Part shown: positions 21,410-43,137 of the stretch, piece by piece
Layout of the letters: each line of letters begins with the position of its first letter
Numbering within the stretch: position 1 is the first letter of the stretch
NCBI RefSeq assembly: GCF_013344685.1
Contig: NZ_CP050137.1
Span: forward strand, 996,001 to 1,060,000
Length of the DNA: 64,000 bases
Direction of reading: 5' to 3'
DNA from: Sphingomonas sp. CL5.1
Lineage (GTDB): Bacteria; Pseudomonadota; Alphaproteobacteria; Sphingomonadales; Sphingomonadaceae
Made by a program: the position numbers and the translations under genes
The notes under the pieces: model-generated
The model's database searches: none
Told to the model about the DNA's origin: nothing
The model's input: only the letters and a program-made list of their open reading frames with translations

Positions 21410-23130
21410 TGTTTCACGTGGAACAAGACTTTGACGTGATCGTGGTCGGCGGCGGCCACGCCGGGACGGAAGCGGCTGCCGCGGCGACCCGTCGTGGCGC
21501 CCGCACTGCGCTGCTCTCGCATCGCCGCGACCGGATCGGGGTGATGTCGTGCAATCCCTCGATCGGTGGACTCGGCAAGGGGCACCTGGTCCGCGAGGTT
21601 GACGCGCTCGACGGTTTGATGGCGCGCGCCGCCGATGCCGCCGCGATCCACCACCGGATGCTCAACCGCAGCAAGGGACTGGCAGTTCAGGGACCACGCA
21701 TCCAGGCGGATCGCGCCCTTTATAGTCGTTCGATCCAGTCGCAACTCGCTAATCAGGAAGGCCTGTCGATCATCGCCGGCGAGGTCGACGCGCTGTTCAT
21801 GCGGTCGGGCAAGGTGACGGGCGTAAGGCTCAAGGACGGCAGCGAAATCGGCGGCCGCGCGATCGTCTTGGCCACCGGCACTTTCTTGGGCGGCCGCATC
21901 TTCCGGGGCGAAGAGCAGCACGAGGGGGGCCGGATCAACGAAGCCGGCGCGATCGAGCTTGCCGAGCAATTGCGCGCGCTCGACCTGCCGATTCGCCGGC
22001 TCAAGACCGGCACGCCGCCCCGGCTAGATGGGCGCACGATCGATTGGGCGATGCTCGCGCCGCAACCATCGGATGCGGATGAGTGGACGATGTCGCCGAT
22101 GACGCGCGTTCGCGCCCTGCCCCAACTCGCTTGCGCCATCTCGCGAACCACTGCGGAAACCCATGCCATCATCCGTGACAATCTCCACCGCTCTCCGCTC
22201 CACACCGGTGCGATCGAGGCTGGCGGGCCGCGCTATTGCCCGTCGATCGAGGACAAGATCCGCCGCTTCGGCGATCGCGACGGCCACCAGATTTTCCTCG
22301 AACCCGAAGGGCTGGATGATCCGCTCGTCTATCCGAACGGCATCTCCACCTCGCTGCCGGCCGATGTGCAGACGGCGATGGTGCGATCGATTCCCGGCCT
22401 TGCCGACGTGACGATCGTCACTCCGGGCTACGCGGTGGAATATGACCACGTCGACCCGCGCGCGCTCGATCATCGGCTGGCGCTCGGCGCATTGCCGGGC
22501 GTGTTCCTTGCCGGGCAGATCAACGGCACGACCGGTTATGAGGAGGCGGCGGCACAGGGGCTGGTGGCGGGCGCCAATGCGGCGGCCCATGCGCTCGATC
22601 TCGCGCCGCTGACGCTCGATCGGGCGACGAGCTACCTCGCGGTGATGATCGACGATCTGGTGCTTCAAGGCGTCACCGAACCCTATCGGATGCTCACCGC
22701 CCGCGCGGAATATCGCCTCGCCCTGCGCGCTGACAATGCCGAGACACGGCTGTCGGCGATCGCCGAGGCGCACGGCCTGATGAGCGACGCGCGGCGCGGT
22801 CATGTCGAGCGCCGGAACGAGCAGCGCGAAGCAATCGCGCGGGGCGAGCGGGATGGCATCGATCCCGACCTTCTGCGCGAGGCGGAGGAGGATGCGCGCT
22901 ACGCCCCCTATCTCGAGCGTCAGGCGGACGAGATCGCCCGGATGCGGCGCGATGCAACGATCGCCGTCCCCAGCGGCGAGGCGCTCGCGGCGGTCAACGG
23001 CCTGTCGAATGAGATGCGCGAGCGGCTTCGTGTCGCCAGTCCCCTGACGCTGGACGAAGCCTCGCGCGTGCGCGGGGTGACGCCGGCCGCCCTCACCGCG
23101 CTCTGGCTTCATGCGAAGGCCAGCGCATGA
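21409..23130 (+). CDS. mnmG: tRNA uridine-5-carboxymethylaminomethyl(34) synthesis enzyme MnmG
   Basis: FAD- and NADH-dependent partner of MnmE. The N-terminus [23 protein letters not shown] holds the FAD Rossmann motif, and the first codons coincide with a parS site. [13 protein letters not shown] and PRLDGRT are family motifs; a C-terminal helical domain ends in [15 protein letters not shown]. At 573 residues it is shorter than the E. coli protein (629). The loss seems to lie in the helical region between about residues 460 and 510. It overlaps mnmE by 1 bp and rsmG by 4 bp. Confidence 0.96.
21410..21425. promoter_or_regulatory. parS: parS centromere site 1
   Basis: TGTTTCACGTGGAACA matches the near-universal ParB-binding parS consensus (TGTTTCACGTGAAACA) at 15 of 16 bases. 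It overlaps the mnmG start codon and encodes FHVE at the protein N-terminus. Such sites near gidAB/parAB are well known. It is the likely loading site for the ParB encoded at 24517-25410. Confidence 0.85.
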
Positions 23131-23741
23131 CGGAAGCGGATGCGAGAGCATGGATCGAACAACGCTTCGGTCAGGAAGCGACGGCCCGCGTCGCGCACTT
23201 TGCGGATCAGGTAGCGCGTGAGAGCGAGTACCAGAATCTCATCGCCCGCTCGACGCTCGATTCGATCTGGTCGCGTCACATCCTCGATTCTGCGCAGCTC
23301 ATTCCGCTCGCTGGGAAAGTTGATGCGGCGACGCGCTGGCTCGATATCGGGTCGGGCGCGGGCTTTCCCGGTGTAGTGGTCGCCCTGCTTACCCCCGCGC
23401 AGGTAACGCTGGTCGAGCCACGTCGCCGTCGCGTCGACTTCCTGTCCGAAACCCTTACCAACACCCCCAACGCCACCGTGCTGCTCGCCAAAGTCGAAGC
23501 GATCTCGGTCGAACCGCAGCAGATTATCAGCGCCCGCGCCGTAGCCCCGGTGCTCGAGTTGTTACGCGCAACCCGCCACCTCGCCGACATATCCACACGT
23601 TATATCTTGCCGCGCGGCCGTTCGGCGCACGCCGAGCTTGAAAGCGCGCGCCGGGGCTGGCACGGATTGTTCCACGTGGAACCAAGCATCACCGACGCGG
23701 AATCGGGGATTCTCATCGCAGAAAAGGTTCGCATCCGATGA
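23127..23741 (+). CDS. rsmG: 16S rRNA (guanine527-N7)-methyltransferase
   Basis: SAM-dependent methyltransferase of 204 residues modifying G527 of 16S rRNA. The SAM-binding loop [13 protein letters not shown] (about 72-84) and [12 protein letters not shown] are typical. The second parS site falls near the 3' end and encodes LFHVEP. The ATG overlaps the mnmG stop, and its own stop overlaps the parA start, both by 4 bp. Confidence 0.95.
23668..23683. promoter_or_regulatory. parS: parS centromere site 2
   Basis: TGTTCCACGTGGAACC contains the perfect 14-bp palindrome GTTCCACGTGGAAC, a standard parS variant. It lies inside rsmG about 70 bp before parA and about 2.26 kb from the first site. The placement allows ParB to spread over its own operon. 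Confidence 0.88.
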
Positions 23742-24520
23742 TCTGTATCGCGGTCGCCAACCAGAAAGGCGGCGTCGGCAAGACGACCAGCGCGATCAAC
23801 CTCGCCACGGCGCTTGCCGCCACCGGCAAGCGCGTGCTGCTGATCGACCTCGATCCGCAAGGCAACGCCTCGACCGGGCTGGGCATCGGGCAGGCCGCGC
23901 GCACCGTCTCCAGCTATCATGTGCTGGTCGATGGGACGCCGATCGATGACGGCGTGGTCGCCTCCGGCATCCCGAGGCTGGAAATCTTGCCGGCGACGGT
24001 CGACCTTTCGGGCGCCGAGATCGAGCTGATCGAGCTTGAGGCGCGCACCCACCGCCTGCTCCGCGCGATCGAGGCGTGCGCGCCGCGCTGGGATATCGTG
24101 CTGATCGATTGCCCGCCGTCGCTCGGTCTGCTGACGATCAACGCGATGGTCGCGGCGGATTCGCTGCTCGTGCCGCTGCAATGCGAGTTCTTCGCGCTGG
24201 AGGGGCTGAGCCAGCTGCTCAGCACGGTCGAGCGGATTCGCGCGCGCTTCAATCCTTCGCTGTCGATCATGGGCGTCGCGCTGACGATGTACGATCGCCG
24301 CAACCGGCTGACCGAGCAGGTCGCGACCGATGTGCGCGCCGTGCTCGGTCGCGTGGTGTTCGACACGGTGATCCCGCGCAACGTCCGCCTGTCGGAAGCG
24401 CCGAGCCACGGCCTGCCCGCGCTGATCTATGATCATCGTTGCAGCGGATCGGAGGCCTATATCGCCCTGGCGCGAGAGTTGATCGCGCGGCTTCCGCGCA
24501 TGAAAGAGGCCGCCGCATGA
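23738..24520 (+). CDS. parA: Chromosome partitioning ATPase ParA
   Basis: Deviant Walker-type ATPase of 260 residues that moves ParB-parS complexes. The motif KGGVGKTTSAINLA is at residues 9-22; LLIDLDPQGNAS and LIDCPPSLGLLT follow, as in the Soj/ParA family without an N-terminal regulatory domain. It overlaps rsmG and parB by 4 bp each. Confidence 0.97.
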   Translation: MICIAVANQKGGVGKTTSAINLATALAATGKRVLLIDLDPQGNASTGLGIGQAARTVSSYHVLVDGTPIDDGVVASGIPRLEILPATVDLSGAEIELIELEARTHRLLRAIEACAPRWDIVLIDCPPSLGLLTINAMVAADSLLVPLQCEFFALEGLSQLLSTVERIRARFNPSLSIMGVALTMYDRRNRLTEQVATDVRAVLGRVVFDTVIPRNVRLSEAPSHGLPALIYDHRCSGSEAYIALARELIARLPRMKEAAA

Positions 24521-25410
24521 CCGATCGCCGCCCCCGCCCCGGCCTTGGCCGTGGCCTCAACGCGCTGCTGGGCGATTTCGCCCGCGACGAGGCGGAAACC
24601 GCGACCGAGGGGCATAGCGCCACCGGCGTGCGGATGATCCCGGTCAGCTCGATCGCGCCGCACCCCGGCCAGCCGCGCCGTCAGTTCGACGAAGCCGCGC
24701 TGATAGAACTGGCCGCCTCGATCGCCGAACGCGGGGTGATCCAGCCGATCATCGTTCGCCCCCACGGCCATGATTATCAGATCGTCGCCGGCGAGCGCCG
24801 CTGGCGCGCGGCGCAGCGCGCCCGGCTGCACGAGGTGCCGGTCGTCGTCCGCGACTATAGCGACAGCGACACGCTCCAGATCGCCCTGCTGGAGAATATC
24901 CAGCGGCAGGATCTCAACGCGATCGAGGAGGCCGAAGCCTATCACCGGCTCGCCGAGGAATTCGGCCATACCCAGGAAGCGCTCGCGCGGATCGTCCACA
25001 AATCGCGCAGCCATATCGCTAACCTGTTGAGATTACTGGATCTTCCTCACGAAGTTCAGGCGCTGGTGGTCGATGGCAAGCTGTCGATGGGCCATGCCCG
25101 CGCGCTGATCGGCGCGCCCGATCCGGCCGCGCTGGCGCAGGAGGTGATCGAGAAAGGGCTGTCGGTCCGTCAGACCGAGAAGCTCGCCAGCTCGGCCAAG
25201 CCCGCGTCCACGCGCGGCGGCAGGGGCGGCAAGAGCTACAGCCAGGATGCCGACGCGGATATCGCGGCGCTGCAACGGCAATTGTCCGATCTGCTCGGGC
25301 TGAACGTGCGGATCGCGCATGGCGAGCGCGGCGGATCGATCACGCTCGATTATTCGACGCTCGACCAGCTCGACATGGTGTGCCAGCGGCTGAGCGGCGA
25401 GCGGATCTGA
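24517..25410 (+). CDS. parB: Chromosome partitioning protein ParB
   Basis: CTP-dependent DNA clamp that loads at parS. It has 297 residues: an N-terminal ParA-stimulating tail with RPGLGRGLNALLGD, the CTP-binding domain with GERRWRAAQ and LLENIQRQDLNAIEEA, a helix-turn-helix (HTQEALARIVHKSRSHIANLLRLL) and a C-terminal dimerisation domain (about 250-297). The two parS sites 0.8 and 3.1 kb upstream are its expected targets. It is convergent with holA, only 4 bp away, with no room for a separate terminator. Confidence 0.97.
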   Translation: MTDRRPRPGLGRGLNALLGDFARDEAETATEGHSATGVRMIPVSSIAPHPGQPRRQFDEAALIELAASIAERGVIQPIIVRPHGHDYQIVAGERRWRAAQRARLHEVPVVVRDYSDSDTLQIALLENIQRQDLNAIEEAEAYHRLAEEFGHTQEALARIVHKSRSHIANLLRLLDLPHEVQALVVDGKLSMGHARALIGAPDPAALAQEVIEKGLSVRQTEKLASSAKPASTRGGRGGKSYSQDADADIAALQRQLSDLLGLNVRIAHGERGGSITLDYSTLDQLDMVCQRLSGERI

Positions 25411-29927: not shown

Positions 29928-30126
29928 CGTCCTGAAAGCGAGGAAACAGCAGCGGCAACCTCTATAGACGCGCCCCGTTCCCCGCAAGCGGGGCGGATTC
30001 GCGCGGCGATCTGGCGGATGATGTGGGAGTCATGCAACACTTAGCAATAAAGCGACTCTTGTGATGGTGCGCCGGGATCGAATCGTGTTAGGCGTATTTT
30101 GATCCAAGTTCAGTTGGGGGTGACTC

Positions 30127-30855
30127 GTGGTCGCTATGCGCGCGATTGCTGGTGGAATGGTCGTGGCGCTCGTCGCCGCGGCTGCCGCCGTCGCGCCCGC
30201 GATCGGAGCCACCGAACTGGGTCAGCGCCCCGCCAAGAAAGCGGCCGCCACGCCGATATCCGCCCGCTTTTCCAGTGGCTTCACGCCGTCCGCCGCCGAT
30301 CCGCGGCTCGCCGCCGTGTTCGCGCGCGGGGGGCTGGACGGCGGTGATGTCGGCGAGTTCCGCTTCACCCCGGCCGAGACGCGACAGGGCAATCGCGCCG
30401 TCACCGTGGCGGTGCGCGCGCGCTCGAATCGAGTCGGCGACGGAACGACTCGCTTCGCCGCAAATGCGCCGACCGTGGGAATCGCGCCGATCGCCTATAA
30501 TCTGGGCGCCGCGATCGGCTGGCAGCGCTTCGCCGTGTCGGGTGACGTCTCGCGCGTCGATGTCGGCCCGCAGCCGGGCAGCCGCGAATCGACCGACGTG
30601 GCGGTCAGCTATTCGCTCAATCGCTTCACCGGCCGCGTGAAGGCCACCGCCGAGCGTCCGCTGGCCGGCGCGACGACCGCCGTGGACAACAATTCGAGCT
30701 ATGCGATCGACGTGGGCGGCTCCTATTCGCTGACCCGCAACATCGATCTCACCGCCGGCCTGCGCTACAAGAGCGAGCGTGAGCGGCTGACGCAGGTTGC
30801 CGACGACCGCCGCGACAGCCAGGCGGTCTACGTGGGCACCGCCTTCCGCTTCTGA
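30127..30855 (+). CDS. Putative outer-membrane beta-barrel protein
   Basis: Exported protein of 242 residues with an Ala-rich signal peptide (cleavage near AIGATE). The mature part alternates hydrophobic and polar residues in short strands (for example GIAPIAYNLGAAIGWQRFAVSGDVSRVD) and ends in YVGTAFRF, with the C-terminal Phe expected for BAM recognition. This fits a small porin-like barrel; I do not recognise a specific family. GGGGG at 30116-30120 supports the GTG start, and ATG 30136 is the alternative. Confidence 0.75.
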   Translation: MVAMRAIAGGMVVALVAAAAAVAPAIGATELGQRPAKKAAATPISARFSSGFTPSAADPRLAAVFARGGLDGGDVGEFRFTPAETRQGNRAVTVAVRARSNRVGDGTTRFAANAPTVGIAPIAYNLGAAIGWQRFAVSGDVSRVDVGPQPGSRESTDVAVSYSLNRFTGRVKATAERPLAGATTAVDNNSSYAIDVGGSYSLTRNIDLTAGLRYKSERERLTQVADDRRDSQAVYVGTAFRF

Positions 30856-36394: not shown

Positions 36395-37651
36395 TTACTG
36401 ATTCATGCTCTCGAAGAAATCCTCGTTGGTCTTGGAATCCTTCATCTTGCCGAGCAGGAACTCCATCGCGTCGACGGTGCCCATCTGCATCAGGATGCGG
36501 CGCAGCACCCACATCTTGCTGAGCGTGCCCTTCTCGACCAGCAGCTCCTCCTTGCGGGTGCCGGACTTGCCGACGTCGATCGCCGGGAAGATGCGCTTGT
36601 CGGCCACCTTGCGATCGAGCACGATCTCGGAATTGCCGGTGCCCTTGAATTCCTCGAAGATCACCTCGTCCATCCGGCTCCCGGTGTCGATCAGCGAGGT
36701 GGAGATGATGGTGAGGCTGCCGCCTTCCTCGATGTTGCGCGCCGCGCCGAAGAAGCGCTTCGGCCGCTGGAGCGCATTGGCGTCGACGCCGCCGGTCAGC
36801 ACCTTGCCCGACGAGGGGACCACGGTGTTGTAGGCGCGGCCGAGGCGGGTGATGTTGTCGAGCAGGATCACCACGTCCTTCTTGTGCTCGACGAGGCGCT
36901 TGGCCTTTTCGATCACCATTTCCGCGACCTGCACGTGACGCGTCGCCGGCTCGTCGAAGGTGGAGGAAACCACCTCGCCGTTCACCGTGCGCTGCATGTC
37001 GGTCACTTCCTCGGGCCGCTCGTCGATCAGCAGCACGATCAGGAACACTTCCGGATGGTTATGCGAGATCGCGCGGGCGATGTTCTGCATCATGATCGTC
37101 TTGCCGACGCGCGGCGGGGCGACGATCAGGCAGCGCTGGCCCTTGCCGATCGGCGCGACCACGTCGAGCACGCGGCCCGACTTGTCCTTGATCGTCGGGT
37201 CCTCGATTTCCATCTTCAGCCGCTCCTCGGGATAGAGCGGGGTGAGGTTGTCGAAGTTCACGCGGTGGCGGACCCGGTCGGGGTCCTCGAAATTCACCGT
37301 GGAGAGCTTGGTCAGCGCGAAATAGCGCTCGCCATCCTTGGGCGCGCGGATCTCGCCTTCCACCGTGTCGCCGGTGCGCAGGCCGAACTTGCGGACCTGG
37401 TTGGGCGAGACATAGATGTCGTCCGGCCCGGCGAGGTAATTGGCCTGCGCGCTGCGCAGGAAGCCGAAGCCGTCGGGCAGCACCTCGATCGTGCCTTCGC
37501 CCATGATCTGGTCGCCGTTCTCGGCCTGGACCTTGAGGATGGCGAACATCAGGTCCTGCTTGCGGAGGGTGGAGGCACCCTCGACGCCAAGCTCCTCGGC
37601 CAGCTGAACCAGTTCCGCCGGAGTCTTCTTCTTCAAATCTTTCAAGTGCAT
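36395..37651 (-). CDS. rho: Transcription termination factor Rho
   Basis: Hexameric RNA helicase of 418 residues. The N-terminal Rho-N helix region begins [23 protein letters not shown] cold-shock-type RNA-binding domain with [27 protein letters not shown] follows. The ATPase has P-loop PPRVGKT (about 176-182) and [13 protein letters not shown]. It lacks the long insertions seen in actinobacterial Rho. A 105-nt leader precedes it. Confidence 0.98.
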
Positions 37652-37816: not shown

Positions 37817-38275
37817 TCAGAAGGGCCGCACGATCACCAGGATCACCGCCAGCATCGCGGCGATGGCGGGAATCTCGTTCATCATCCGCAAGGCGCGGTT
37901 GCTGATCGTCGGCTTGCCGCGCGCGAGCTTCTTCGAATAGCCCACCGCCCAGCCGTGATAGGCGGACAGCAGCAGCACGATCGCGATCTTGGCATGCAGC
38001 CAGCCGAGGCCGGGCGCCCCCGCGAGCAGCCCGAGGTTGATCGCCAGCATCGCACCGAACAGCCAGACGAGGATCATCGACGGGGTGAGGATGATGTTGC
38101 GCAGCCGCCGCTCGCGCTCCGTCCAGCGCGCGGCGTCGGCCGGGTCGGCCAGCCCTTCCTGATGATAGACCAGATAGCGCGGCAGCATGAACATCCCCGC
38201 CATCCAGAAGATGACGAAGATCACATGCCCGGCCTTCACCCAGTCATAGGCCACACCGAGGAAACCCGGCTCCAT
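37817..38275 (-). CDS. hemJ: Protoporphyrinogen IX oxidase HemJ
   Basis: Membrane heme-synthesis enzyme of 152 residues with four hydrophobic segments. The conserved early His and Trp in KAGHVIFVIFWMAGMFMLPRYLVYH and a later LHAKIAIVLLLSAYHGW are typical. It catalyses oxidation of protoporphyrinogen. The gene lies between hemE and rho, as in many alphaproteobacteria. Confidence 0.9.
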   Translation of the reverse strand: MEPGFLGVAYDWVKAGHVIFVIFWMAGMFMLPRYLVYHQEGLADPADAARWTERERRLRNIILTPSMILVWLFGAMLAINLGLLAGAPGLGWLHAKIAIVLLLSAYHGWAVGYSKKLARGKPTISNRALRMMNEIPAIAAMLAVILVIVRPF

Positions 38276-38299: not shown

Positions 38300-39316
38300 C
38301 TACGAACGCACCCGCGCCACCAGTTGCTCGACATGAGCGATCGGCGTGTGCTGCCCGATGCCGTGGCCGAGGTTGAAGATGTGCGGCCGATCGCGGAATG
38401 CTTCAAGCACCCGGTCGATACCGCGCGTCAGCGCCGCCCCGCCGACCTCCAGCGCGATCGGATCGAGATTGCCCTGTACCGGAAGCCCGGCGGGCAGCAC
38501 CGCATCGGCCCAGGCCGGATCGACCGTCTCGTCCAGCCCGATCGCATCGACCCCGGTGCCGGCGGCATAGGCGGGCAGCTTGCCGCCAGCGCCCTTGGGG
38601 AAACCGATTACCGGGACATGCGGATGGCGTTCCTTCAGCGCCCGCACGATCGCGGCATTGGGGGCGATCACCCAGCGTTCGAACTGCTCGGGCGACAGGC
38701 TGCCGGCCCAGCTATCGAACAATTGCACCGCCTCCACCCCGGCCTCGATCTGGCGGGCTAGGTAATCGACCGTCATCGCCACGATCGCGTCCACGATCAC
38801 ATCGAACGCCGCCGGATCGCGATAGGCGAACATCCGCGTCTCGCCCTGATCGCGGCTACCCTGCCCGGCGACCATATAGGTGGCGACGGTCCACGGGCTG
38901 CCGGCGAAGCCGAGAAAGGTGGTTTCGGCCGGCAGCATCGCCCTGACGCGCCGCACCGTCTCATAGACCGGATCGAGCCGCTCCGCCGCCCGTTCGAGCG
39001 ACGCGAGCGGTTGCGTGGCCAGCGGTGGGACGAGGCGCGGTCCCTCGCCGGGGCCGAAGCTCAGTTCCTGCCCCAGCGCCCACGGCACCATCAGGATATC
39101 GGAGAACAGGATCGCGCCGTCGAAGCCGAAACGGCGGATCGGCTGCACCGTCACCTCGGCGGCGGCGGCCGGATCAGTGGCGAGCGCGAGGAATCCGCCC
39201 TTCTCCGTCCGTAGCGCGCGATATTCCGGAAGATAGCGCCCGGCCTGCCGCATCAGCCACATCGGCGGGGTCGCCAGCCTTTCCCCCTTGAGGACGTTCA
39301 GCAGGGCCTTGGTCAC
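38300..39316 (-). CDS. hemE: Uroporphyrinogen decarboxylase
   Basis: Heme-pathway enzyme of 338 residues converting uroporphyrinogen III to coproporphyrinogen III. The N-terminal PPMWLMRQAGRYLPEYR and the later GFAGSPWTVATYMV and FNLGHGI segments are diagnostic. The start is GTG at 39316. It flanks the candidate replication origin on the left, the same position as hemE beside oriC in Caulobacter. Confidence 0.97.
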   Translation of the reverse strand: MTKALLNVLKGERLATPPMWLMRQAGRYLPEYRALRTEKGGFLALATDPAAAAEVTVQPIRRFGFDGAILFSDILMVPWALGQELSFGPGEGPRLVPPLATQPLASLERAAERLDPVYETVRRVRAMLPAETTFLGFAGSPWTVATYMVAGQGSRDQGETRMFAYRDPAAFDVIVDAIVAMTVDYLARQIEAGVEAVQLFDSWAGSLSPEQFERWVIAPNAAIVRALKERHPHVPVIGFPKGAGGKLPAYAAGTGVDAIGLDETVDPAWADAVLPAGLPVQGNLDPIALEVGGAALTRGIDRVLEAFRDRPHIFNLGHGIGQHTPIAHVEQLVARVRS

Positions 39317-39620
39317 CGCGATGCGCTTCCTTCTTCCAATATAAGAGATTCAAGGAGGTTGTTGATGCAGTAGGCACGTGGGTTGCGGGGCTTATGCGCC
39401 GCTGCCGGAAATGCCAACAGCTTGACCGCGGGCGAGTCCGCGGATTCCCCCGGATTCGGGATTCGCCGTCCCCATGATCCACAGGCTGTTGAGGAACATC
39501 GCCGGCGTGGACCGGTTTGTGGACGAATCACCGCTTTTCCACGCCGCCGGTTGCGCCTTGGCGGGCCGGCACGGTTGCGCTAGCGCTTGTCCGCATGTTT
39601 TCCACAGGCTTGTTCCGGCG
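39317..39620. other. oriC: Candidate chromosomal replication origin (oriC)
   Basis: A 304-bp gap between divergent hemE and the PEP-synthase regulator gene, relatively AT-rich near hemE (CCAATATAAGAGATTC). DnaA-box-like sequences: TGATCCACA at 39475-39483, TTTTCCACA at 39598-39606, and weaker TTTTCCACG at 39535-39543 and TGTGGACGA at 39518-39526. Six GANTC (CcrM-type) sites lie within 39347-39529. In Caulobacter, oriC occupies the equivalent gap. A frame open to the right gene crosses the region, but I do not believe it is translated. Confidence 0.72.
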
Positions 39621-40451
39621 ATGGTGAGGCTTCACCTCCACCTCCTATCGGATTCGACCGGCGAGACGCTGGAGAATATCGCCAAGGCCGCGCTCGCCCA
39701 GTTCGACGATGTCGAGACGGTGCGGCATTTCTGGCCGATGGTGCGCACCGAGGCGCATCTCGATCGCATCCTCCAGGAGATCGCGCAGAATCCGGGGCTG
39801 GTCATCTATACATTGGTCAATCCCGCCACCCGTGGCGCACTGGAGCAGCGTTGCCAGGCGCTCGGCCTGCCGATGGTCGCGCCGCTCGACCGGGTGACCG
39901 ATGCGCTGTCGGACCTGCTCGGACAGCAGGCCAAGGGGCGGCCGGGCCGCCAGCACGCGCTCGACGCGGCCTATTTCGAGCGGGTGGACGCGATCCAGTT
40001 CACCATCGCGCATGACGACGGCATCGGATCGGAGGATTGGGAGCAGGCGGATATCGTCCTCGCCGGGGTCAGCCGCTCGTCCAAGACGCCGACGTCGATC
40101 TATCTCGCCAATCGCGGCTACAAGGTCGCCAATATCCCGATCGTGGTGGAAAGCCCGCCGCCGGCGACGCTCTACGCGCTGGAAAAGCCGTTGGTCGTCG
40201 GTCTCACCACCAGCGCCGACCGGTTGATCCAGGTGCGGCGCAACCGGTTGCTGTCGCTCAATCAGGCGCCGGAGACCGCCTATGTCGATCAGGAATCGGT
40301 GTCGAAGGAGATCGCCTTCGCGCGGCGCATGTTCACTGACAACGGCTGGCCGGTGATCGACGTGACGCGCCGCTCGATCGAGGAGACGGCGGCGGCGATC
40401 ATCTCGCTGTGCAACGAACGGCGCGGCGAACGGGAGGGCGCGGGCGAATGA
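39621..40451 (+). CDS. ppsR: Pyruvate, phosphate/water dikinase regulatory protein (DUF299)
   Basis: Bifunctional ADP-dependent kinase and Pi-dependent phosphorylase that controls PEP synthase or PPDK by threonine phosphorylation. It has 276 residues. The family start HLHLLSDSTGETLENIAKA and the nucleotide-binding GVSRSSKTPTSIYLANRG (about 150-167) are clear. An in-frame ATG at 39474 would add 49 residues from the origin; I reject it because the conserved N-terminus begins at 39621. It overlaps maf by 4 bp. Confidence 0.93.
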   Translation: MVRLHLHLLSDSTGETLENIAKAALAQFDDVETVRHFWPMVRTEAHLDRILQEIAQNPGLVIYTLVNPATRGALEQRCQALGLPMVAPLDRVTDALSDLLGQQAKGRPGRQHALDAAYFERVDAIQFTIAHDDGIGSEDWEQADIVLAGVSRSSKTPTSIYLANRGYKVANIPIVVESPPPATLYALEKPLVVGLTTSADRLIQVRRNRLLSLNQAPETAYVDQESVSKEIAFARRMFTDNGWPVIDVTRRSIEETAAAIISLCNERRGEREGAGE

Positions 40452-41038
40452 AGCTGATCCTCGCCTCGCAATCCGCCTCGCGCCGCGCGATGCTGGAAGC
40501 GGCGGGCGTGCCGTTCGCGGCGCAGCCGGCGCATGTCGACGAGGCGGCGGCCAAGGCCGCGCTCGCTGGCCGATCCCCGCGCGATCTCGCCGACGCGCTC
40601 GCCGAGCTGAAGGCGCTCAAGGTGTCGCAGCGCGAGCCGCAGGCGCTGGTGCTGGGATCGGATTCGCTCGTCGCGCTGGAGGATGGCGCGATCCTCGACA
40701 AGCCGGAGAGCCGCGAGCAGGCCGCCGCGCATCTCCGGCGCATGTCGGGCGGACGGCACGAGATCGTCAGCGCGGCGGTGATCGCGGAGGGCGGCCGGGC
40801 GGTGTGGCGGCATGTCGACCGCGCGAAGCTGTTCGTGCGGCCGCTCTCGCCCGCGTTCATCGACGCGTATCTCGACGCCGAATGGCCGGCGATCGCAGGC
40901 TGCGTCGGCTGTTTCCGCATCGAGGGGCCGGGGGTGCAATTGTTCAGCCGGATCGAGGGCAGCCAATTCACCGTGCTGGGGATGCCGTTGCTGCCGCTTC
41001 TTTCCTATCTGCGTGAACGTGGAGTGCTGCTGGCATGA
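40448..41038 (+). CDS. maf: Maf-like nucleotide pyrophosphatase
   Basis: House-cleaning pyrophosphatase of 196 residues acting on non-canonical or modified nucleotides. SQSASRRAMLEAAGV, LGSDSLVALEDG, and the late AGCVGCFRIEGPGVQLFSRIEGSQFTVLGMPL are Maf hallmarks. It overlaps both neighbours by 4 bp. Confidence 0.92.
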   Translation: MKLILASQSASRRAMLEAAGVPFAAQPAHVDEAAAKAALAGRSPRDLADALAELKALKVSQREPQALVLGSDSLVALEDGAILDKPESREQAAAHLRRMSGGRHEIVSAAVIAEGGRAVWRHVDRAKLFVRPLSPAFIDAYLDAEWPAIAGCVGCFRIEGPGVQLFSRIEGSQFTVLGMPLLPLLSYLRERGVLLA

Positions 41039-41847
41039 CGCGCCCTTATGCCGAGGTGATCGGCGATCCGATCGCCCATTCGAAATCGCCGCTGATCCAC
41101 GGCTTCTGGCTGGAGAAACTGGGGATCAAGGCGGATTATCGCGCCACCCATGTCCTGCCCGACGACTTGCCGCGCTATATCGCCGAGCGGCGCGACGATC
41201 CGGCGTGGCACGGCTGCAACGTGACGATCCCGCACAAGATCGCGATGCTCGATCTGGTCGACGATCCGGGCGAGGTGCGCGATTCGATCGGGGCAATGAA
41301 CACGATCGTGCGCGATTCGGACGGGCGGGTATTCGGCACCAATACCGACGCCGCCGGATTCTACGCGCCGCTCGCCGAGGTGGATCTTGCCGGCGCGCCG
41401 GTGGCGGTGATCGGCGCGGGCGGCGCGGCGCGGGCGGTGCTGTTCGCGCTGGCGCGGGCCGGGGTCGGCCCGGTTACGATCCTCAATCGCAACCCTTTGA
41501 AGGGCGCGGCACTGCTGGCGCGCTTCGGGCTGAAGGGCGATGCGTTGCCGTTGTCCGCCGCGCTCCCGCCGGCCGCCCTGCTGGTCAACACCAGCGCGCT
41601 GGGCATGACGGGCCAGCCGCCGCTGGAGGTGGACCTGTCGCCGCTGCCGGACGGGGCGATCGTCTATGATATCGTCTACGCTCCGCTGGAGACCGGCCTG
41701 TTGCATCAGGCCGAGGCGCGCGGGCTGGAGAGGATGGACGGGCTGGAGATGCTGATCGGGCAGGCGGCGATGGCGTTCGAATTGTTCTTCGGCCGCCCCG
41801 CCCCGCGCGTCCACGACGCCGAGTTGCGCGAGCTGCTGACGCGATGA
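41035..41847 (+). CDS. aroE: Shikimate dehydrogenase
   Basis: NADPH-dependent reduction of 3-dehydroshikimate in aromatic amino acid synthesis. It has 270 residues. [25 protein letters not shown] (catalytic Lys) and the NADP loop [15 protein letters not shown] are present, with a C-terminal [11 protein letters not shown]. The ATG overlaps the maf stop. Confidence 0.95.
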
Positions 41848-42437
41848 TCCGGCTCGGCCTCACCGGCTCGATCGGCATGGGCAAATCGACCGTGGCGAAG
41901 CTGTTCGCCGAGGAGGGCGTGCCGGTGTTCGACGCCGATGCCGCCGTCCACCGGCTGCAGGGGCCGGGCGGTGCGGTGGTCGGGAGAATCGAGGCGCGCT
42001 TCCCCGGCACGACCGACCCGCGGGGAGTCGACCGCGAGAAGCTCGGCGCGGCGGTGCTGGGCGACGATGCGGCGATGAAGGCGCTGGAAGCGATCGTCCA
42101 CCCGGCGGTGGGCGCGGAGCGCGCGCGGTTCCTCCGCGACCATGCCGACGCGCCGCTCGTGCTGTTCGATATACCCTTGCTGTTCGAGACCGGCGGCGAT
42201 CGCGCGGTGGATAAAGTGGCCGTGGTCTCCGCCGCGCCTCATGTCCAGCGCGCACGCACGCTGGAGCGCCCCGGCATGACGCCGGAGAAGTTCGACGCGA
42301 TCCTCGCCCGCCAGACGCCCGATGCGGAAAAGCGCGCGCGCGCCGATTTCGTCATCCCCACCGATGTCCCGCTGGAGGAAACCCGCGCGGCGGTGCGTGC
42401 GGTCATCGCTTGCCTGTCGCGTCCGACAGGCCGATAA
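41844..42437 (+). CDS. coaE: Dephospho-CoA kinase
   Basis: Last step of coenzyme A synthesis, 197 residues. P-loop [16 protein letters not shown] is at residues 5-20; [19 protein letters not shown] and [13 protein letters not shown] follow as in the family. It overlaps aroE by 4 bp. Confidence 0.95.
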
Positions 42438-42444
42438 CGGGCGC

Positions 42445-43137
42445 ATGCGGGAAATCGTGTTCGATACCGAAACGACTGGCCTCAGCTTCTCGGGCGGGGA
42501 CAGGCTGGTGGAGATCGGCTGTGTCGAGATCTTCAACCGGGTGGAGACGGGGCGCACCTTCCACGCCTATTTCAACCCGGACCGCGCGATGCCGGCGGAG
42601 GCGTTCGCGGTGCACGGCCTGTCCGACGCCTTCCTTTCCGACAAGCCGCGCTTCCCCGAGCTGGTCGAGGCGATGCTCGATTTCATCGGCGACGCGCCGC
42701 TGGTCGCGCACAATGCCGGATTCGACTTCGGCTTCCTCAACGGCGAACTGAAGCAGTGCGGCCGTCCACTGGTATGTACGACGCGGATGGTCGACACGCT
42801 GACCATCGCGCGATCGAAACATCCCGGCGCGAAGCACACGCTCGACGCGCTCTGCTCGCGCTACGGGATCGACCGGTCGCATCGCGTGCTGCACGGCGCC
42901 TTGCTCGACGCGCAATTGCTGGCGCAGGTCTATGTCGAGCTGCTCGGCGGGCGGCAGATCGGGCTGGGGCTGGTCAGCGACGTGACGGTGGTCGCCGCGC
43001 AGCCGGCGCAGGTGCGGACGCCCTCGGTGGTGCGTCCCGCTCGCGCTTTTTCGGCAAGCGAGGCGGAACTCATCGCCCATGCCGCGTTCATGGGGAGGGT
43101 GAAGAACCCGATATGGGGGAGCGATGCGTCCGCGTGA
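42445..43137 (+). CDS. dnaQ: DNA polymerase III epsilon (proofreading exonuclease)
   Basis: 3'-5' exonuclease subunit of 230 residues. ExoI DTETTG (about 7-12), ExoII LVAHNAGFDFGFL and ExoIII HGALLDAQLLAQVY are intact. A linker and a C-terminal clamp/alpha-binding tail follow. The ATG at 42445 gives MREIVFDTETTGL. Its place near the origin follows the order known in Caulobacter. Confidence 0.95.
   Translation: MREIVFDTETTGLSFSGGDRLVEIGCVEIFNRVETGRTFHAYFNPDRAMPAEAFAVHGLSDAFLSDKPRFPELVEAMLDFIGDAPLVAHNAGFDFGFLNGELKQCGRPLVCTTRMVDTLTIARSKHPGAKHTLDALCSRYGIDRSHRVLHGALLDAQLLAQVYVELLGGRQIGLGLVSDVTVVAAQPAQVRTPSVVRPARAFSASEAELIAHAAFMGRVKNPIWGSDASA

Follow-up and report, generated by a model that had tools for sequence, protein, structure and literature searches.

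Does the gap between hemE and ppsR hold the chromosomal replication origin (oriC) of this Sphingomonas, and do the GANTC sites gathered in it take any part in initiation? An earlier note on this DNA had proposed the first and suggested the second, reading the cluster of sites as a sign of methylation control. The window analyzed here is the whole stretch of 64,000 nucleotides (C1:996001-1060000), taken from a genome that consists of C1 (4,441,086 bp) and C2 (126,708 bp).

Gene context and placement of the origin

The gap is 304 bp long, with a GC content of 61.8% against 69.2% in the whole window, and it separates the divergent genes hemE (- strand) and ppsR (+ strand). Family profile matches bear out the neighborhood described earlier, with hemE-hemJ-rho on one side and ppsR-maf-aroE-coaE-dnaQ on the other:

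36395..37651, - strand, rho (TIGR00767, over cut-off)
37817..38275, - strand, hemJ (TIGR00701, 120.8 against a cut-off of 138.05, and so below it)
38300..39316, - strand, hemE (TIGR01464, over cut-off)
39317..39620, no strand, hemE-ppsR intergenic gap, probable chromosomal oriC region by skew, boxes and GANTC count
39621..40451, + strand, ppsR (NF003742, over cut-off)
40448..41038, + strand, maf family gene (TIGR00172, over cut-off)
41035..41847, + strand, aroE (TIGR00507, just over cut-off)
41844..42437, + strand, coaE (TIGR00152, over cut-off)
42445..43137, + strand, dnaQ (TIGR01406, over cut-off; translated from 42439)

The ppsR reading frame extends open upstream to an ATG at 39474, and the start was set at 39621 because the matches to the family and to relatives begin there. 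The MAG Sphingomonas sp. 67-36 encodes an identical product (100% over the 275 residues compared).

Nucleotide skew was read from 59 stretches of 20 kb together with the window, that is 1.244 Mb of 4.441 Mb, sampled more densely around the expected origin and terminus. The cumulative G-C curve of the window has its minimum at 39337, inside the gap; over 850-1270 kb the minimum lies at 1034 kb (404 of 420 1-kb bins with data), and the coarse chromosome-wide curve (48 of 89 bins with data, the others interpolated) is lowest in the bin covering 1000-1050 kb and peaks in the one that starts at 3250 kb, the two lying half a chromosome apart. The GC-skew check that the earlier note had proposed thus places the minimum of this 1.244 Mb sample in the gap and not elsewhere. 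Negative skew was found in four stretches of the positive arm (1150001, 1250001, 1850001 and 1950001) and positive skew in three of the negative arm (250001, 3450001 and 4050001). With the arms split at the skew minimum and maximum, counts of GGGNAGGG, which we take to be a KOPS-like motif, are 82 against 16 on the right arm and 33 against 77 on the left. The pattern presumed to represent parS occurs, at up to one mismatch, at only two places in the whole genome, 15.6 and 17.9 kb from the gap, where the sites adjoin mnmE-mnmG-rsmG-parA-parB; sites and parAB together lie 14-18 kb from the gap:

21410..21425, no strand, parS-like site, no mismatch to the presumed pattern (C1:1017410)
23668..23683, no strand, parS-like site, one mismatch (C1:1019668)
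23738..24520, + strand, parA-like ATPase (best family NF041546, below its cut-off)
24514..25410, + strand, parB (TIGR00180, over cut-off)

The dnaA gene (C1:2114796-2116115) is separated from oriC by about 1.1 Mb.

The best DnaA-box cluster score in the 1.244 Mb sampled is that of the hemE-ppsR gap, and the cluster is conserved among relatives. Both boxes named in the earlier note are present; its count of two weaker boxes has to be raised to three (39518 on the - strand, 39535 and 39587), each of them two mismatches from TTATCCACA:

39337..39376, no strand, most AT-rich 40-bp window scanned (60% AT), candidate unwinding element
39475..39483, + strand, DnaA box TGATCCACA (CCACAG block 1.73 bits per position)
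39518..39526, - strand, weak DnaA box TCGTCCACA (TGTGGA block 1.42 bits per position; overlaps the GAATC at 39525)
39535..39543, + strand, weak DnaA box TTTTCCACG
39587..39595, + strand, weak DnaA box TTGTCCGCA
39598..39606, + strand, DnaA box TTTTCCACA, containing TCCACA, the best conserved hexamer in the gap

The first of these, TGATCCACA, presumably matches the letters of the Caulobacter G-box. G-boxes carry a T to G substitution (PMC4468827). No Rfam family matched at gathering thresholds between 38800 and 40200, and the gap shows no unusual single-strand folding (z -0.46).

An origin next to hemE has been predicted for most Sphingomonadaceae (DoriC; PMC4741004); for S. alaskensis the DoriC origin is placed elsewhere, and the authors of that study would move the entry to hemE. 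The alternative that the origin of CL5.1 lies elsewhere, the gap being merely a conserved promoter region, can appeal to a skew read from only 1.244 of 4.441 Mb, but the skew minimum, the parS-like sites, the box cluster, the opposite terminus and the published precedent all agree, and we consider it highly improbable. The proposal of an origin in this gap is upheld by the skew minimum inside it and the maximum opposite, by parS and parAB nearby, by the conserved boxes and by the published hemE-side prediction; the hemE-ppsR gap is very probably the chromosomal oriC. Its placement beside hemE is ordinary and expected from relatives, as it was already predicted for most of the family (PMC4741004).

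GANTC enrichment in the gap and its distribution

A direct count returns the six GANTC sites announced for the gap, with starts at 39347, 39434, 39443, 39453, 39460 and 39525:

39347..39351, no strand, GANTC (GATTC), flanked by the two hexamers of a promoter-like site in the AT-rich part towards hemE
39434..39438, no strand, GANTC (GAGTC)
39443..39447, no strand, GANTC (GATTC)
39453..39458, + strand, GATTCG (GAKTCG), conserved GANTC 20 bp before the CCACA of the first DnaA box
39460..39464, no strand, GANTC (GATTC)
39525..39529, no strand, GANTC (GAATC), overlapped by the weak DnaA box TCGTCCACA

Among 300 dinucleotide shuffles of the gap the mean was 1.10 and the maximum five, six being reached in none, so the chance expectation of about one site given in the earlier note is right for this null. 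GANTC is under-represented in the window as a whole (134 seen, 312 expected), and its rate rises from 1.32/kb in called coding sequence to 3.06/kb in intergenic sequence of the 1.244 Mb sample, where some long "intergenic" stretches are probably genes missed by the crude gene caller, and to 19.7/kb in the gap. Of 176 intergenic regions between 150 and 600 bp in length, the gap has the highest count, followed by three with five sites. In the first 844 kb sampled, six GANTC per 304 bp also occur at C1:977129 and C1:4407920, so the cluster is rare and not unique.

Several GANTC-rich regions lie outside the origin. Within the window, five sites fall in a 229-bp divergent gap (29928-30156) between a DUF3576 gene and a gene with no Pfam or NCBIfam match. 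Five lie at C1:4407840-4408137, in an intergenic gap upstream of a gene that matches MraZ weakly, perhaps where a division and cell-wall cluster under CcrM/GcrA control begins. Another five, at C1:977150-977413, precede the gene of a nidogen-like protein of the PEP-CTERM kind.

The order hemE-gap-ppsR is kept in 79 of the named relatives, which are the best 80 of at least 573 ppsR relatives; the 80th, on a stretch without hemE, was left out, as were two further loci in which hemE was not found. The gaps of these 79 hold 427 GANTC in 26,962 bp (15.8/kb), and when that of the window is added the 80 gaps, again from the best 80 of at least 573, hold 433 against 121 expected from shuffles. Taken singly, 54 of the 80 show the excess at p 0.05, many of these rows being near-identical. 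A non-redundant set of 57 gaps was therefore compiled from the relatives and the family draw, 38 of 95 being dropped as at least 80% identical to another, and it contains 268 GANTC in 19,448 bp. For the order we drew the best 30 matches (16 of 16 family genomes and 14 of 43 other matching order genomes), and for the class likewise the best 30, which covered 28 of 62 other class genomes; the gap was present in 26 of these. The 15 drawn family gaps are enriched (64 GANTC, 21.6 expected), the 14 gaps that represent the order's other families show no excess (best 14 of 43; 21 against 21.3 expected), and the 26 class gaps, also best matches, hold 79 against 60.4 expected. Six gaps from the S. trueperi / S. 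azotifigens group carry 11-12 GANTC and a single box that differs from TTATCCACA at no more than one position, and the locus as a whole is richer in GANTC in this group too, at 4.9-5.8 per kb.

Both CcrM (374 aa, N6_N4_Mtase and RAMA) and GcrA are encoded in the genome. With RAMA used as the mark of CcrM, 59 of the 60 genomes in the order draw have it and all 60 have GcrA; in the class, 71 of 96 genomes have RAMA. That GANTC density simply tracks the presence of CcrM was considered and rejected, since enzyme and GcrA are nearly universal in the order draw, where the excess is not general, and so fail to explain the difference. Among class genomes with the gap and no RAMA match, two have six and four GANTC and another has two in 1067 bp; the first two are drafts, but the observation still speaks against a simple link between GANTC and CcrM.

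A conserved GAKTCG beside the first DnaA box

The GANTC at 39453 is kept in 79 of 80 aligned gaps (best 80 of at least 573 relatives) and in 50 of the 57 non-redundant ones. Of these 50 carriers, 41 have T at N and nine have G, with A and C never seen, and the base after GANTC is G in 46. At every one of the 12 further GANTC columns listed (at least seven carriers), by contrast, some carriers show A or C. On a quick ppsR tree, with 18 of 54 inner branches weak, N switches between T and G at least seven times and the presence of the site changes at least three times.

An alignment-free search for GAKTCG-N18-22-YCACA on the + strand found the pattern in 43 of the 57 non-redundant gaps against 0.08 expected from mononucleotide shuffles, a count that is post hoc since the spacer and YCACA were chosen after the alignment had been seen; the initial pattern, with a spacer of 14-19, gave 25 of 57 on either strand. 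The control GAMTCG, under the same settings, gave none of 57 on the + strand and one on the - strand. On the + strand the pattern is present in six of the 15 drawn family gaps, and neither the 14 gaps of the order's other families nor the 26 of the class contain it; the - strand gave three of 57, two of 15, and none in either of the wider sets. When the following G is not required, the spacer is 19 in 31 gaps, 20 in 15 and 22 in one.

Results are mixed for the other genera of the family, from which nine gaps were drawn. Three carry the site in its column. Five lack it there and have CGACTC, the other-strand form, some 20 bp earlier, two of these having in addition GAGTCGAGTC, one base off the column; the ninth has neither. 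Given this patchiness, the site is better seen as a trait of Sphingomonas and some neighbors than of the whole family. The comparison suggests that one GANTC site is under selection, which lends only indirect support to the methylation control suggested in the earlier note. The new element is a lineage-specific conserved GAKTCG at a fixed spacing of 19-20 bp to the DnaA box. The open-licence literature searched yielded nothing on GANTC, GcrA or GAKTCG at the origins of sphingomonads.

Possible roles as promoter switches or parts of the origin

GANTC sites could also act on transcription, and a promoter-like site lies on the hemE side:

39338..39365, - strand, TCAACA-16-TATATT, promoter-like site towards hemE (0.1 expected in shuffles)

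A serious competing explanation, to which we give a substantial but less than even chance, accepts the gap as oriC and takes its GANTC as CcrM/GcrA switches of the hemE and ppsR promoters, initiation being untouched. GANTC is denser in intergenic than in coding sequence (3.06/kb against 1.32/kb), the 39347 site falls between the hexamers just listed, and a hemE-side GANTC is placed in this way in 12 of the 57 non-redundant gaps; in Caulobacter, starts with GANTC between -10 and -35 form a cell-cycle class (PMC4287350). However, the figure of 12 compares with 0.7 expected, an expectation that is low partly because shuffling destroys GANTC, and the promoter-like sites themselves, in 18 of 57 gaps, are barely above the 13.8 expected. 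Nor does the explanation extend easily to the conserved site: a promoter-like match, by a crude E. coli-type consensus, spans GAKTCG in one of 43 gaps on the + strand and in none of 43 on the - strand, which does not suit an element of a sigma-70 promoter, and the spacing from GAKTCG to the DnaA box is fixed. Since promoter-like hexamers flank the hemE-side site in 12 of 57 gaps and GAKTCG in only one of 43, the two are treated apart. The hemE-side GANTC is probably an element of the hemE promoter or of the AT-rich opening region; the GAKTCG next to the first DnaA box more likely belongs to the origin complex.

Candidate readers of the conserved site

What could bind there? GAKTCG is the core of the motif YGAKTCG proposed for GcrA-activated promoters, an extended motif that, according to the same source, was not found in subvibrioides (PMC7987155). 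The site in the window has GAKTCG, preceded by G in place of Y. It is also conceivable, if rather unlikely in our estimate, that GATTCG at 39453 serves an origin-binding protein other than GcrA, or is a weak DnaA site, and overlaps GANTC incidentally. The single orientation and spacing, an N of T or G only and the G that follows in 46 of 50 carriers exceed what CcrM needs, and GAKTCG is an unremarkable context over whole gaps (87 of 268 GANTC on both strands of the 57 gaps). Against this, GANTC is enriched throughout the gap, beyond the 39453 site, and GAKTCG coincides with the core proposed for GcrA (PMC7987155).

The reading that we pursue, tentatively and with less than even confidence, is that a protein which reads GANTC methylation sits beside DnaA and modulates firing or nearby transcription. 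From the position, skew, boxes and conservation observed here we infer a possible course of events. DnaA would bind the boxes at 39475-39606, the DNA would open, probably at the AT-rich 39337-39376, and two forks would leave towards a terminus near 3.25 Mb. The GANTC sites, presumably methylated by CcrM, would become half-methylated once a fork passes. The GAKTCG at 39453 would be the best candidate seat beside DnaA for a GANTC reader, GcrA first among them, through which methylation could modulate firing or nearby transcription.

A stronger version makes the Sphingomonas origin a methylation sensor, at which GcrA or another reader would occupy GAKTCG according to CcrM methylation and help or block DnaA assembly. 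We regard this as distinctly doubtful. An older model assumed that Cori needs full methylation (PMC2217572). Caulobacter cells over-expressing CcrM accumulate extra chromosomes, yet those that lack ccrM show a normal DNA-content profile and intact replication control (PMC3973325, the former as cited there). In Agrobacterium CcrM affects ori2, a RepC origin, and its effects on the DnaA-dependent ori1 are non-significant (PMC11514494). Against a methylation reader of either kind also weigh the 14 gaps of other order families, which show no GANTC excess despite nearly universal RAMA and GcrA, the class gaps that have GANTC and no RAMA match, the GAKTCG pattern in only six of 15 drawn family gaps and none of the 40 drawn outside the family, and the G that stands for Y in the window. 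If true, a sensor would mean once-per-cycle control at a DnaA-type origin of a kind not found in Caulobacter. The selected-looking motif offers a single site at which to ask whether methylation controls DnaA-type initiation in Alphaproteobacteria, a question that was answered "no" in Caulobacter.

Comparison with known origins

A conserved gene cluster at the Caulobacter origin was reportedly described by Brassinga in 2001, and we assume that Cori shares the order hemE / ppsR-maf-aroE-coaE-dnaQ with the gap described here. The cluster at Cori of Caulobacter crescentus is a point of likeness to the present locus (PMC4741004), as are several GANTC (PMC3973325) and DnaA sites, which at Cori are of the G-box and W-box types (PMC4468827). 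The closest counterpart, the predicted Sphingomonadaceae oriC of Sphingopyxis granuli TFA and of DoriC entries (PMC4741004), shares the hemE side, the gene order and the DnaA boxes; the portions of that article on the Sphingomonadaceae oriC mention no GANTC or GAKTCG site. Cori has five CtrA sites (PMC2217572), whereas the gap of the window is without any TTAA. The strict pattern TTAA-N7-TTAA occurs in two of the 80 gaps of relatives and window (relatives from the best 80 of at least 573) and in one of 26 class gaps, and this contrast with Cori is weak because the pattern is scarce in the class as well. CtrA influences replication in S. melonis (PMC8116508). Given this role, and a strict pattern that is rare in the class too, CtrA may have some control over the Sphingomonas origin.

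The origin of E. coli resembles the Sphingomonas gap in having methylation sites beside DnaA boxes. The roles of Dam and SeqA there have been described (PMC2865523), and that system differs in that enzyme and motif are here CcrM and GANTC. The repABC origins of alphaproteobacterial chromids are GANTC-rich, like the gap (PMC6090056), but they are RepC-dependent and not an oriC of the DnaA-box type, and one of them, ori2 of Agrobacterium, responds to CcrM (PMC11514494).
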